Of a stretch of DNA of 64,000 nucleotides, positions 4,176 through 10,037 are shown piece after piece. The position numbers were made by a program, and so were the translations under genes. This DNA comes from Balneolaceae bacterium (GTDB lineage Bacteria > Bacteroidota > Rhodothermia > Balneolales > Balneolaceae). Every line of letters starts with the position of its first letter. Positions within the stretch are counted from its first letter, which is position 1. The stretch lies in the NCBI GenBank assembly GCA_006969905.1, contig CP030887.1:186001-250000 (forward strand), given 5' to 3'. A model generated the notes under the pieces. It saw only the letters and a list, made by a program, of their open reading frames with translations, searched no databases and had not been told where the DNA came from.

Positions 4176-5471
4176 ATGAAAAAGAGAATTGCCTCATATA
4201 CACTTGCCTTATTCATGATTTTGTGGATAGCAAACTGTACAGAACCATACCAGGTCAGTATTGAAAATTCTACCCGAATTTTGAAAACTCTCAGTTCTGA
4301 TGAAATGAGAGGCCGCCATGCCCTATCACAGGATATTAAAGCTGCAGAAGATTTTATCGCTTCCGAATTTAAAAAAGCCGGTTTAAAAACTTTACCTGAA
4401 AACGATTCTTACTACCAGGATTTTAACTTGTATTCAGTTTCTATGAATGAGGTTGATTTTCTTTACAATGGTAAGCAGGTAAAGTCATCTGCTTTCTTTG
4501 GTTTCTTTCGATCTTCTTCTTTTTCAATAGACAGATCCTCTACCAAAACAGTAACTATCGGCAGCCTAGATAACTTCAGATCACAATTCAATACATATAG
4601 AAATAGTGAAGAAGATTTGTTGGTTTTGGTAAGTCAATCTCATCAGGATGACTTTAGCCGCTATCAATCCTTTTTTTCAAGGCCAACACGAACTATGGAG
4701 CTTAATGGAGCCGGGAATGTAATATTCCTGCTCACTAATGATGCTCCGAATAGCTTTCAGGCTGATTTTAAAAACAAGGTAGAGAGCTTTGAATTACGGA
4801 ACATAACAGGAATGATAGAGGGTAAGCGAAAAGATGAAATCGTGCTCTTTTCAGCACATCATGATCACATTGGAATTCGAAATGCTGTTGAAAGTGACTC
4901 CATTGCAAATGGAGCTAACGATAACGCTTCCGGGGTTACTGCTGTAATAGAACTGGCCAATTATTTTTCCAGCCTCCGGAAACCGGAACGTACACTTTTA
5001 TTTGTAACCTTTACTGCCGAAGAAATGGGTGGATATGGTTCGCAGTACTTTTCGGAGCAGCTTAATCCCGATGAAATTGTAGCCATGTTCAATATAGAAA
5101 TGATCGGCAAACCCGCAGTTGAAGGCCCAAATTCTGCGTGGATAACAGGTTTTAACCAGTCAAGCTTTGGAGAGTTACTACAAAAAAGTGCAGAGGGCTC
5201 CATTTATTCATTCGCGCCTGATCCATATCCCCAGCAAAATCTCTTTTACCGTTCTGATAATGCCACACTAGCCAAGCTTGGCGTTCCGGCGCATACTATA
5301 AGTACTACCCCTATTGATGTGGACAAAGATTATCACCGTGTTAGTGATGAGTTTGAAACACTCAACGTTGAACACATTACAAACACCATAAAGGCTATTG
5401 CAAAGGGTGCCGAGGGAATTGTTTCAGGCAGAGATACTCCTACCCGCGTCAATCCTGATAATTTGAATTAA
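4176..5471 (+). CDS. M28-family zinc aminopeptidase, lipoprotein
   Basis: A 431-residue secreted metallopeptidase. The signal peptide ends in a lipobox (WIANC, Cys21), so it is probably a membrane-anchored lipoprotein. The N-terminal region (about 25-200) includes a PA-like insertion. The M28 catalytic domain shows His228 and Asp230 in AHHDH, Asp249 in GANDNASG, the catalytic and metal-ligand pair Glu282-Glu283 in TAEEMG, Glu308 in NIEMIG (often Asp in the family) and His387 in DYHRVSD. All expected di-zinc ligands are therefore present. The likely role is trimming N-terminal residues from peptides outside the cytoplasmic membrane, as part of peptide scavenging. It is transcribed alone, 79 bp after the kinase gene. 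Confidence 0.92.
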   Translation: MKKRIASYTLALFMILWIANCTEPYQVSIENSTRILKTLSSDEMRGRHALSQDIKAAEDFIASEFKKAGLKTLPENDSYYQDFNLYSVSMNEVDFLYNGKQVKSSAFFGFFRSSSFSIDRSSTKTVTIGSLDNFRSQFNTYRNSEEDLLVLVSQSHQDDFSRYQSFFSRPTRTMELNGAGNVIFLLTNDAPNSFQADFKNKVESFELRNITGMIEGKRKDEIVLFSAHHDHIGIRNAVESDSIANGANDNASGVTAVIELANYFSSLRKPERTLLFVTFTAEEMGGYGSQYFSEQLNPDEIVAMFNIEMIGKPAVEGPNSAWITGFNQSSFGELLQKSAEGSIYSFAPDPYPQQNLFYRSDNATLAKLGVPAHTISTTPIDVDKDYHRVSDEFETLNVEHITNTIKAIAKGAEGIVSGRDTPTRVNPDNLN

Positions 5472-6021: not shown

Positions 6022-6055
6022 ATGTAGCTGGTTTAATCATGTAAATCAGCTACAT
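6022..6055. terminator. Long hairpin between convergent genes, overlapping the pxpC stop codon
   Basis: Fourteen-base arms, ATGTAGCTGGTTTA and TAAATCAGCTACAT, pair with one G-T wobble around a 6-base loop. The hairpin lies between the converging gene ends at 6012 and 6050 and contains the TAG stop of pxpC. Neither side has a good U-tract (plus side continues CACTTT), so it may act as a bidirectional weak terminator or a 3'-end stabiliser. Confidence 0.5.
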
Positions 6056-6913
6056 CACTTTCCTGAATGATAAACTGTTGCCGGGTTTAAGTTGAGCCAG
6101 TTTCCATAAATCATCGTCAACTACTTTTGCGATTCGTGGATACCCACCTATAGTTTGACCATCTTTCATCAGGATAATTGGCTTCCCATTTTCTGGAAGC
6201 TGAATGATACCGGGAATAACAGGAGAAGAAATCATTTGCTGATCCGGACTTTTTAAAGCACGTCCGTCTAATCGTATTCCCATACGGTTACTTTGATTCA
6301 TTACTTTAAAATTACTGTCAAAGAACTGTTCCTGGATTTTTTTATCTAACCATTCCCATTCTGTTCCTAATGTAACTTTTACATTAGGAACTTTATCCAG
6401 ATCTATAGGCTTTAGTGTCTCGTGGCTAAATTCTACTTTCGCAGTTGGCTCCCATTTAAGAATATCATTTTTCTTTAACGCCCTACCTGAATAGCCTCCA
6501 AAACCAGCCAAAGTATAAGTGGAATAGCTCTCCATAATCTTATCCGCCTGCAACAATCCAAATATAGCTAAATAGGAACGGCAACCTTTCTCAGCAAATC
6601 CCAAGATCAATTCATCTCCTTTTGAGATTCTATGGGTACAATTCATTTCTATAAGTTTTCCATTTACAACCGGGTTCATCTCAGCGCCGGTAATTGCAAT
6701 TTCTGCATCTGAGTCAAAACGATATAAACCGCCTTGCAATGTACATTCCAAAACCGGATAATGGTGAGGATTACCGACCAATTGATTTGCTAGTTTAAAA
6801 GATTCAACATCCATTGCACCTGATACAGGGACTCCGTACTTCCCAAATCCAAACCTGCCACTGTCCTGGATGGTTGTAAATACTCCTGGATTTACAACGG
6901 TTAGTCTACTCAT
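6050..6913 (-). CDS. pxpC: 5-oxoprolinase subunit PxpC (biotin-dependent carboxyltransferase/KipA family)
   Basis: Subunit C of the ATP-dependent prokaryotic 5-oxoprolinase, which opens the damaged-metabolite ring of 5-oxo-L-proline to glutamate in the cytoplasm. The 287-residue protein is a standard AHS2/KipA domain, opening with NPGVFTTIQDSGRFGFGKYG, with GRAL near the middle and the conserved GYPRIAKVV near the C-terminus. I chose the ATG at 6913 over an upstream TTG at 6928, because MSRLTVVNPG matches the family start. The ATG overlaps the pxpB stop by 8 bases (ATGAGTAG), which suggests translational coupling. It is the last gene of the pxpA-pxpB-pxpC set. Confidence 0.94.
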   Translation of the reverse strand: MSRLTVVNPGVFTTIQDSGRFGFGKYGVPVSGAMDVESFKLANQLVGNPHHYPVLECTLQGGLYRFDSDAEIAITGAEMNPVVNGKLIEMNCTHRISKGDELILGFAEKGCRSYLAIFGLLQADKIMESYSTYTLAGFGGYSGRALKKNDILKWEPTAKVEFSHETLKPIDLDKVPNVKVTLGTEWEWLDKKIQEQFFDSNFKVMNQSNRMGIRLDGRALKSPDQQMISSPVIPGIIQLPENGKPIILMKDGQTIGGYPRIAKVVDDDLWKLAQLKPGNSLSFRKVM

Positions 6914-7592
6914 ACTCAAAGTGATCAAATACGTCTTTACTTATTGCCTTGAAAATCAATTTATCATCTGGTTGTAATTTTATGGGAGGATTTGATTCCA
7001 CATCAAAAAAAGAAAGCGGGGTTCTGCCAATAATCTGCCATCCTCCCGGACTTTCAAGAGAGTAAATACCCGTTTGCTGACCACCAATACCAATCGAACC
7101 TTTAGGAACAGAAGTTCTCGGGTTTGATTTCCTGGCACAAGCTAAGGAGGAATCCAACCCTTCAAGGAAAATGAACCCCGGAACGAAACCCATCATGGCT
7201 ACCGTATAAACCTGAGAGCTATGAGTTTCAACAATTTGGGCTTTCTCTATTTGGGTAAAATCTTCAACTTCAGCCCAATCCAATCCTAAATCGTAGCAGA
7301 CCGGAACCTCATACTTTTGGGGTTGTGAGTTTTTTTTGTCATTCCAGTTAATCCCCGCCAATAATTCTGATACCAAATGCAGGTTGACCGGACTCTTAAA
7401 CAGAAGAGCTATTGAATGATAAGCAGGAATAATATCTATCAAATGATTAATAGTAACTGATTCAAGCACATTCAGAACTTTTCGCACTTTTGCCGTCTGA
7501 TACCCTTCTTGCTCAAGTTCCATAAGGATCGCACATTCACCAAGCTGAGAGACCTTCCAGTTCTCCCGATTAAGCTGCAGTAATTTCGACAT
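6906..7592 (-). CDS. pxpB: 5-oxoprolinase subunit PxpB (KipI family)
   Basis: Subunit B of the 5-oxoprolinase complex, an AHS1/KipI domain protein of 228 residues. Visible family features are the central PVCYDLGLDW segment, VYTVAMMGFVPGFIFLEGLD, and the RKSNPRTSVPKGSIGIGG stretch followed by the GGWQIIGRTPL motif. In Bacillus the KipI homologue also inhibits kinase KinA, but here the neighbouring pxpA and pxpC point to 5-oxoproline breakdown. The ATG at 7592 lies 23 bases inside the end of pxpA, so the genes overlap and are probably co-translated. Confidence 0.94.
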   Translation of the reverse strand: MSKLLQLNRENWKVSQLGECAILMELEQEGYQTAKVRKVLNVLESVTINHLIDIIPAYHSIALLFKSPVNLHLVSELLAGINWNDKKNSQPQKYEVPVCYDLGLDWAEVEDFTQIEKAQIVETHSSQVYTVAMMGFVPGFIFLEGLDSSLACARKSNPRTSVPKGSIGIGGQQTGIYSLESPGGWQIIGRTPLSFFDVESNPPIKLQPDDKLIFKAISKDVFDHFEYE

Positions 7593-8325
7593 CGTTCCTC
7601 TTTAAAAAGTCATGAATTTCCCGTGCTAATTCGGATGCTCCACTGGTGTCACTATGCAAGCATATCGTTTCCGCCTTTACCGCAAGAGTGTTACCAGAAA
7701 AGCTTATCACCCTTCCTTCAAGCACCATACTTTTAACCTGATCTAATACTTTCGAAGTTTCAAATAGCACGGCACTAGGTTTCTTTCTTGAGCGAAGGCT
7801 CAAATCATCCTCATAAACACGATCAGCAAAAACTTCGCTTACAAATTGAAGCCCTGCATTAGTAACCGCATTTTCAAATACCAAACCGGATTGGCCGTAA
7901 ACTTTTGGGGCTGCATCGGTACTTGTAATAGCTGCAACAATAATCAAAGCCGTTTGTTCGTCAAAAGCAGCAGTATTATAAAGTGCTCCATGAGGTTTAA
8001 TGTGATGCAATTCACCGCCCGCATCTTCAACCAATGATTTAAGGTCTAACATCTGGGTGCGAATAGTGTTCTCCAATTCCTTGTCTTCAATTTCCATCCT
8101 TCTTCTGCCAAATCCTTTCCTGTCCGGGTAGCTTGGGTGGGCACCTATAGCCACATCATGCTTTAATGCCAGTTCAATAGTTTTTTTCATACTGTAAACA
8201 TCTCCGATATGCCCTCCACATGCTATATTGCATGAAGAAATAAAGGGCATAATGGATGCATCCAGTTCCGGGCCATTGTCACTCCTCCACTCACCTAAGT
8301 CGCAGTTTAAATCTACTTTCTTCAT
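7570..8325 (-). CDS. pxpA: 5-oxoprolinase subunit PxpA (LamB/YcsF family)
   Basis: Subunit A of the 5-oxoprolinase complex, a 251-residue LamB/YcsF-family TIM-like barrel. It opens with VDLNCDLGEW (family DLNCDLGE) and shows SCNIACGGHIGD, GAHPSYPDRKGFGRR, HIKPHGALYN and FADRVYEDD, all highly conserved in the family. It acts with PxpB and PxpC in the cytoplasm. Its start codon shares one base with the stop codon of the upstream transporter gene (TAATG), so all four genes form one translation-coupled operon. Confidence 0.95.
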   Translation of the reverse strand: MKKVDLNCDLGEWRSDNGPELDASIMPFISSCNIACGGHIGDVYSMKKTIELALKHDVAIGAHPSYPDRKGFGRRRMEIEDKELENTIRTQMLDLKSLVEDAGGELHHIKPHGALYNTAAFDEQTALIIVAAITSTDAAPKVYGQSGLVFENAVTNAGLQFVSEVFADRVYEDDLSLRSRKKPSAVLFETSKVLDQVKSMVLEGRVISFSGNTLAVKAETICLHSDTSGASELAREIHDFLKRNDVEITAA

Positions 8326-9557
8326 TACAGGAATTTGAAAACGGAATTGAGGCTTCTAAAACTGATTACTAGTGTAACTCCAATTACCAAAATGCTTAAT
8401 ACATTTTGGAAAGTGCTGTTTACCTGGTCTCCCAGTAAAGCGATTTTATTCATTATATATAATAGAAAAATAGCTACAATGGGTAATAATATCCCATTCG
8501 CAACCTGGGCAAACTGGATAATTACAACAGGACTAATGCTCAGCATTGAAAAAACTACTCCTACGAGTAATATCCCGATCCAAACTGTCCGAAACCTCCT
8601 ATCTGTAAGTCCGGCATCCCAACCTAAAATACCTTTTGCTGCGTAAGATGCTGCAAGCGGTGCTGTAACTGCCGAAGAAACTCCGGCTGCTAATAAGCCT
8701 GTTCCCAAAAAATATGCCGACCATTTACCTAAAACCGGCTCCAGCTGCCGGGCCATGTCTGCTGCATTTTTTATTCCTGACCCTTCACCAAACAGTGTGG
8801 CACTGGTAACTACAATAGCTATAGAAATGATACCGCCTAAAATGACAGCAACAGCATTTTCTATTCTGAGATCCGAAAGCTGATTTATGCTATGATACTT
8901 TTGCTTTATAGAAGAAGCATGAAGAAACAGGTTATAAGGAACAATAGTAGTACCCACCAAACCGGCAACCATTAACAGTTGATCTGGATGTAGTTTTGGA
9001 ATAAACAGGCCACTGATAATCTGGTTGATGTCCGGCTGAATTACTAAAGCCGTGGTTAAAAAGACTGCGCTCATTACCAAAACCAAAGCTATAAGAAAAA
9101 ACTGTATACGCCTGAAACTTCCTGAATAAAGTAACCAAAATGCAAGAGCACCTATAAGTAAAGGGGTTAGTCGAACTTCTATATTACTCACACTGACACT
9201 CAATGAAGGAAGTATCTCATTCCAGCCAAGTATCGCCCCTGAGATATTACCCCCTTGGTATGCTGCATTCCCAATTACAATTGCACCAAGTACAAAAACA
9301 ATCCCAAGCCATCTTAAAACAGGTTGCTTTAACTCTTTCCTAATAGCTTCGCCAAACCCAGACTGGGTTACCAGACCTAACCTGGCAGTCATCTCCTGAA
9401 GTATTATGGTGGCCAATACTGAAAAAAGAAGAGCCCAAAGAAGTACATAACCTGTATTGGCACCTGCTAGTGTACAGACAGTAATGGTTCCGGGACCAAT
9501 AAAGGCCGCTGTAACCAATGTGCTTGGACCAAAAAAATTCTTTATTCCCCCGAACAT
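8325..9557 (-). CDS. NRAMP-fold membrane transporter lacking canonical metal-site motifs
   Basis: A 410-residue integral membrane protein with about 11 helices and the overall NRAMP (SLC11) pattern. The hallmark metal-binding motifs are changed. The helix-1 DPGN is GPGT (residues 21-24), and the helix-6 MPH is VPY (206-208) within GTTIVPYNLFLHASS. In characterised NRAMP metal transporters the Asp, Asn and Met of these motifs hold Mn2+ or Fe2+. The gene is the first of the 5-oxoprolinase operon. B. subtilis ycsG, also NRAMP-like, sits in a comparable place beside ycsF, kipI and kipA. I infer that it imports a substrate related to the operon, perhaps 5-oxoproline, rather than a transition metal. 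Fold assignment is firm; substrate is speculative. Confidence 0.88.
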   Translation of the reverse strand: MFGGIKNFFGPSTLVTAAFIGPGTITVCTLAGANTGYVLLWALLFSVLATIILQEMTARLGLVTQSGFGEAIRKELKQPVLRWLGIVFVLGAIVIGNAAYQGGNISGAILGWNEILPSLSVSVSNIEVRLTPLLIGALAFWLLYSGSFRRIQFFLIALVLVMSAVFLTTALVIQPDINQIISGLFIPKLHPDQLLMVAGLVGTTIVPYNLFLHASSIKQKYHSINQLSDLRIENAVAVILGGIISIAIVVTSATLFGEGSGIKNAADMARQLEPVLGKWSAYFLGTGLLAAGVSSAVTAPLAASYAAKGILGWDAGLTDRRFRTVWIGILLVGVVFSMLSISPVVIIQFAQVANGILLPIVAIFLLYIMNKIALLGDQVNSTFQNVLSILVIGVTLVISFRSLNSVFKFL

Positions 9558-9620
9558 ATTTGAGTATATACATAGTAAGAGATAAAATCCTTTGAATTAT
9601 TAGTAAGCAGATAAAACGTA

Positions 9621-10037
9621 ATGGCACAAAATAAAACAATACCAACAGGCGCAAGTGTGGCCGATTATATACACCAAATTGATAATCCGCAGAGAAAAGA
9701 AGACTGCATCACCATTCTAGAACTAATGAAAGAGGCCACTGGAGAGGAACCCAAAATGTGGGGATCGAGTATTGTTGGGTTTGGAAGTTATCATTATAAA
9801 TATGAGAGCGGACGTGAAGGTGATATGATCCTTACCGGATTCTCGAATCGAAAACAAAATATTACCATTTACATTATGTCTGGTTTCAAAAAATATGACG
9901 ATCTTTTGGTTAAAGTTGGTAAGTTCAAGACTGGAAAATCTTGTTTCTATATAAAACGACTTTCTGATATTGATATAGAAATTTTAAAAAAAATGATAAA
10001 ACTGTCCGTTGAAGAGGTAAACAATAGATATAAGTGA
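9621..10037 (+). CDS. DUF1801-domain (YdhG-like) protein
   Basis: A small soluble protein of 138 residues with the DUF1801 fold. The features seen are an N-terminal helix region with VADYIHQIDNPQRKEDC, the family-typical EEPKMWGSSIVGFGSYHY, and a C-terminal FKTGKSCFYIKRLSDID segment. The family is related to the iron-chaperone YdhG/frataxin-like group, but the biochemical role is not established. It is the first of three closely spaced plus-strand genes (gaps of 3-4 bases to the following genes), so it is probably co-transcribed with the SRPBCC and methyltransferase genes. Confidence 0.85.
   Translation: MAQNKTIPTGASVADYIHQIDNPQRKEDCITILELMKEATGEEPKMWGSSIVGFGSYHYKYESGREGDMILTGFSNRKQNITIYIMSGFKKYDDLLVKVGKFKTGKSCFYIKRLSDIDIEILKKMIKLSVEEVNNRYK

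Follow-up and report, generated by a model that had tools for sequence, protein, structure and literature searches.

NRAMP-like uptake of 5-oxoproline is already known as a general idea, thanks to PxpT of C. glutamicum and YcsG of B. subtilis. PxpT, described in 2026, is needed for growth on 5-oxoproline; pxpT alone complements in trans, and the known proline carriers cannot substitute for it (PMC13274462). The same paper reports that pxp mutants of B. subtilis build up 5-oxoproline inside and outside the cells, and that PxpT is 50% identical to YcsG, which means that PxpT belongs with YcsG. YcsG was first claimed for 5-oxoproline use and later re-described as the Mn2+ importer MntG; cells that overexpressed it contained more Mn, and the pxpA promoter is bound by MntR (PMC10448178). 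In A. baumannii, MumT has likewise been reported to import Mn2+. Cells deleted for mumT had less Mn, and the operon includes genes for an allophanate-hydrolase homologue and a biotin-carboxylase-family protein (PMC5050338). MumT and PxpG of C. difficile are placed here by papers or gene order only. The pxpBC and biotin-carboxylase genes beside a YcsG-type transporter in L206 resemble these neighbours of mumT. A 2026 preprint names EleNRMT- and MntG-containing groups and calls the remaining Nramp-related groups entirely uncharacterised (PMC12873925). The branch described here is presumably one of them.

The gene and its operon

The window is a stretch of 64,000 nucleotides (C1:186001-250000) from a Balneolaceae genome of 3.49 Mb. 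Its minus strand carries, in this order, an NRAMP-fold gene, pxpA, pxpB and pxpC:

8325-9557, minus strand: NRAMP-fold transporter, proposed 5-oxoproline importer (410 amino acids, intact open reading frame)
7570-8325, minus strand: pxpA, 5-oxoprolinase subunit A (LamB/YcsF; NCBIfam NF003814, 268 bits over cut-off; PF03746)
6906-7592, minus strand: pxpB, 5-oxoprolinase subunit B (TIGR00370, 159 bits over cut-off; PF02682)
6050-6928, minus strand: pxpC, 5-oxoprolinase subunit C (TIGR00724, 286 bits over cut-off; PF02626; score under the strict PxpC equivalog cut-off)
9558-9620, no strand: intergenic gap of 63 bases toward the divergent DUF1801 gene (9621-10037, plus strand)

The transporter gene heads the 5-oxoprolinase operon, as the original prediction had stated. 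Its stop codon TAA and the ATG of pxpA overlap by one base (TAATG, 8323-8327) and each pxp gene overlaps the next, so translation of transporter and PxpABC is probably coupled. The gap before the DUF1801 gene is most likely the site of the operon promoter. Promoter-like matches near the operon were no more numerous than in shuffles. No Rfam element reached the gathering threshold between 5000 and 11000, which includes metal riboswitches near the operon, and an approximate palindrome for MntR-type boxes matched only at chance level, far from the operon. Metal-regulated expression was rejected on these grounds. The M28 protein at 4176-5471 was also considered as a glutaminyl cyclase and dismissed; its best solved relatives are aminopeptidases.

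Fold, substrate site and branch

By profile and by predicted fold, the window protein belongs to the NRAMP-fold superfamily. PF01566 covers residues 29-381 (E 2e-83, 280 bits, cut-off 29.8). An AlphaFold2 model built with 47 relatives has a mean pLDDT of 92.7 and a pTM of 0.91. Its best structural matches are NRAMPs (Z 49 with DraNramp, 6c3i; Z 46 with EleNRMT, 7qia), and APC amino-acid transporters are among the next (Z 26-29). EleNRMT is also the best single-sequence match in the PDB.

The metal motifs are lost, as originally noticed. The protein has AAFIGPGT in TM1, GNI in TM3 and GTTIVPYN in TM6. In the alignment to DraNramp and BfraNramp, G21-P22-G23-T24 falls on DPGN and V206-P207-Y208 on MPH; D56, N59, M230 and H232 of DraNramp are thus G21, T24, V206 and Y208. 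The TM3 glutamate (DraNramp E134, BfraNramp E116), which contacts Mn2+ in BfraNramp (PMC12873925), is N104. Among 78 pxp-linked relatives, V206, Y208 and N104 are conserved in 100% and T24 in 99%; G21 stands at 99% due to a gap in one row, so that every relative covering these sites has G21 and Y208. With residues this nearly fixed, no acidic, thioether or imidazole ligand is left at the metal site. The protein lacks the DPGN and MPH of canonical NRAMP metal transporters, and with N104 and Y208 in place of the proton-path residues E134 and H232 the canonical proton path is mostly lost. It also lacks the TM1 aspartate (DAGG) and the TM6 APW of the NRMTs, having G21 and Y208 there. G21, N104 and Y208 are common to the window branch and the YcsG/PxpT branch, whereas DPGN transporters have D, E and H and NRMTs D, E and W. 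N354 is likewise common to both branches and is also found in NRMTs.

The parallel with B. subtilis ycsG, on which the original prediction drew, holds for the operon but not for the sequence branch. In a B. subtilis-type genome (L166) the order is pxpA-ycsG-D-Glu cyclase-pxpB-pxpC-IclR, and this transporter is about 20% identical to the window protein. YcsG-type motifs read SSIGPGFLTQT or SAIGPGFLTQT in TM1 and GGTVGGY in TM6. The deposited YcsG model 9a52, compared with the window-protein model, gave 19% identity and a Z of 41. The tree groups the YcsG-type proteins in a single clade (100/100), which has a very long branch and leaves the window protein outside. Support for the window branch, including its b and c subclades, is 90/96, and the NRMT rows form a clade of their own. 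A single sequence branch of window protein and YcsG is thus rejected by identity and tree. Their sister relation stays compatible: holding both pxp-linked branches as one clade was not rejected (AU test, p 0.356). The single NRAMP branch originally suggested has thereby become two supported clades, which may be sisters or separate recruitments into pxp operons. Judged by its sequence, the window protein is a member of a second NRAMP-fold branch, apart from YcsG/PxpT; this placement is what is new here.

Two further NRAMP-fold proteins in the same genome (L053:5627-6877 and L054:5886-7145) likewise have neither DPGN nor MPH. A further clade in Bacilli (L152, L153, L155, L156, L163) has GPGS in TM1 and no MPH.

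Partner enzymes across genomes

A survey of 198 Bacteroidota genomes from 102 genera, in which the transporter was counted at 45% identity or more to the window protein, found it in 26 genomes. It adjoins pxpA in 24, lies 1.2 kb off in one and elsewhere in another. All 12 transporter-bearing genera have pxpA, versus 28 of the 102 overall (hypergeometric p 2e-8, uncorrected for phylogeny). Chance alone would give far less linkage. None of the lower-scoring NRAMP-fold genes listed in the same genomes is adjacent to pxpA. Among the named genomes, four phyla have the window branch beside pxpABC: Bacteroidota, Bacillota, Actinomycetota and, mostly as MAGs, Pseudomonadota. The genes come in at least four orders: nramp-A-B-C in most, nramp-B-A-C (L077), A..nramp..B-C (L074) and B-C-A-nramp (L089). 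Another 22 window-branch loci (three sampled twice) have no pxp or hyu gene in the flanking DNA examined; some of these stretches, from the genome search, are only about 4 kb long, which makes the lack of linkage weak there. Viral contigs contained no relative of the window protein, and on plasmids window-type copies occur in haloarchaea only, plus one 38% relative in Qipengyuania.

In many marine Flavobacteria a DUF2891 gene (PF11199) lies directly upstream of transporter-pxpABC (L096:4875-5990, L127:4884-6002 and about 28 more loci); at L079:9773-10897 it lies downstream of pxpC. DUF2891 is a candidate partner in 5-oxoproline use. A window-type fragment with an internal stop beside pxpA (G128:C3:7272-8336) is a decaying copy.

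The branch has a second enzyme partner. HyuA/HyuB, which is non-homologous to PxpABC, comprises ATP-dependent cyclic-amide hydrolases, among them the type of 5-oxoprolinase found in archaea and eukaryotes (PMC6507225). At 17 haloarchaeal loci the window-branch gene is directly followed by hyuA and hyuB; the haloarchaeal plasmid copies are 42-47% identical to the window protein. In the sister c-type subclade HyuA/HyuB is a neighbour at 6 of 13 loci, and two Bacteroidota MAGs (L080, L082) have a single-chain, fused HyuAB beside the transporter. Since the transporter is kept across two enzyme types, the common factor is more likely to be their substrate class than a cofactor that one of them needs. 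The HyuA/HyuB linkage is stronger evidence than the basis of the original prediction. Hydantoinases and caprolactamase belong to the family as well, models of the latter match the haloarchaeal pairs under cut-off, and one of these pairs adjoins a gene of the Asp/Glu-racemase family; the haloarchaeal HyuA/HyuB substrate may therefore be another cyclic amide. At L042:5176-7644, in front of hyuA-hyuB, the NRAMP-fold domain follows a stretch of about 400 residues that matches no Pfam family; part of this long frame may be spurious.

N104 is present in all 102 readable pxp- or hyu-linked proteins (78 and 24, respectively). The eight loci linked to an arginase-family gene (one place sampled twice) all have D104, without E or Q at 101. 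Those included in the tree form one clade, which means essentially one change. D104 also occurs in L146, with no arginase-family neighbour in the flanking DNA examined. An aspartate at 104 fits a cationic substrate, but this is only a hint. We regard it as possible, yet somewhat doubtful, that bacteria and archaea have a large NRAMP-fold family of organic-solute carriers that has gone unrecognised behind annotations as metal transporters. Its different subclades would track different amide- or guanidine-cleaving enzymes, and N or D at 104 would help to set an anionic lactam versus a cationic guanidino substrate.

Window-type transporters of Bacilli that follow an arginase-family gene and carry D104 were seen at L119:4248-5928 and in L101, L106, L122, L129, L149 and L150; in L119, L122 and L129 a YheO-type regulator lies in between. 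Members of the b-type subclade adjoin 2-oxoacid:ferredoxin oxidoreductase genes (L035:3988-7171, L036:3249-6214).

The likely substrate and the known transporters

In our view the window protein is quite probably a 5-oxoproline importer. As a LeuT-fold secondary transporter within the wider NRAMP family, it would bring 5-oxo-L-proline (pyroglutamate) into the cell, with H+ or Na+ as the coupling ion, and PxpABC would then open the lactam with ATP to yield glutamate. APC amino-acid transporters bind the carboxylate via backbone amides of a GSG/GTG segment. By analogy, the unwound TM1 segment IGPGT would offer its free backbone amides to the carboxylate, and N104, Y208 and N354 might hydrogen-bond the lactam. 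5-Oxoproline import is the best reading of the overlapping pxpABC operon and of the same pairing in four phyla with different gene orders. It also draws support from the pairing with the unrelated HyuA/HyuB, the N104 of all pxp- and hyu-linked loci, the G21, N104 and Y208 in common with the YcsG/PxpT branch, and the requirement for PxpT, a protein of the same fold class, on 5-oxoproline. An operon with 5-oxoprolinase would be expected of a 5-oxoproline importer, and the gene of the window protein lies in one. An organic substrate, most simply 5-oxoproline, is thus still favoured, as originally proposed, now with PxpT in support. The original grounds, motif loss and pxp linkage, are insufficient by themselves, since YcsG and MumT are reported Mn2+ importers (PMC10448178, PMC5050338).

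It is quite unlikely that the protein imports Mn2+ or another divalent metal via a rebuilt site, be it for the oxoprolinase or for the cell, the role that has been ascribed to YcsG/MntG and MumT. The Mn changes on YcsG overexpression and mumT deletion and the binding of MntR to the pxpA promoter speak for it; the Mn data are, however, cell-level and come from a branch of about 20% identity or from MumT. In the genome itself, no DPGN NRAMP and no ZnuA-type binding protein for Mn/Zn were found, which leaves room for a metal role, and arginases, which partner a subclade of the window branch, are Mn enzymes. Against this stand the complete loss of acidic and thioether side chains from the TM1/TM6 site, N104 at the place of BfraNramp E116, and the lack of a metal riboswitch near the operon at the Rfam threshold; even the Mg2+-transporting NRMTs keep the aspartate of D56. 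An organic substrate other than 5-oxoproline (glutamate, glutamine, proline, a pyroglutamyl peptide or a hydantoin), or export of 5-oxoproline, is also rather unlikely. Members of the branch do also pair with genes of the arginase family, of C-N hydrolases and of HyuA/HyuB and may therefore not all carry one substrate, and export would suit the 5-oxoproline found both inside and outside B. subtilis pxp mutants. Yet the co-occurrence is specifically with ring-opening enzymes of two unrelated kinds, and C. glutamicum cannot grow on external 5-oxoproline without PxpT, for which the known proline carriers are no substitute (PMC13274462).

Import of 5-oxoproline would give a function to an NRAMP-related group apparently among those uncharacterised in the 2026 phylogeny. 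It bears on the dispute whether Mn2+ or 5-oxoproline is the cargo of pxp-linked NRAMP proteins, and it predicts that NCBI's default name, Nramp family divalent metal transporter, misdescribes a branch found in archaea and in several bacterial phyla.

The known relatives differ from the window protein in distinct ways. Canonical NRAMP/MntH proteins (DraNramp, BfraNramp) are alike in overall structure (Z 43-49) but have DPGN, MPH and a TM3 glutamate, where the window protein has GPGT, VPY and asparagine, plus an operon with oxoprolinase. The Mg2+ transporter EleNRMT is like the window protein in having no MPH, whereas NRMTs retain the TM1 aspartate and TM3 glutamate that it has lost. APC amino-acid transporters (GkApcT, AdiC, ApcT) have the LeuT fold in common and a TM1 G-x-G segment that resembles GPG; at about 10% identity they are by sequence another family. 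PxpT of C. glutamicum, YcsG (MntG) of B. subtilis and PxpG of C. difficile combine NRAMP fold and pxp operon as the window protein does, and YcsG-type loci match it in GPG of TM1, GN of TM3, Y of TM6 and N of TM10. PxpT and YcsG, in contrast to it, have been studied by genetics, with a disputed substrate, and stand in a separate clade at about 20% identity (L166).
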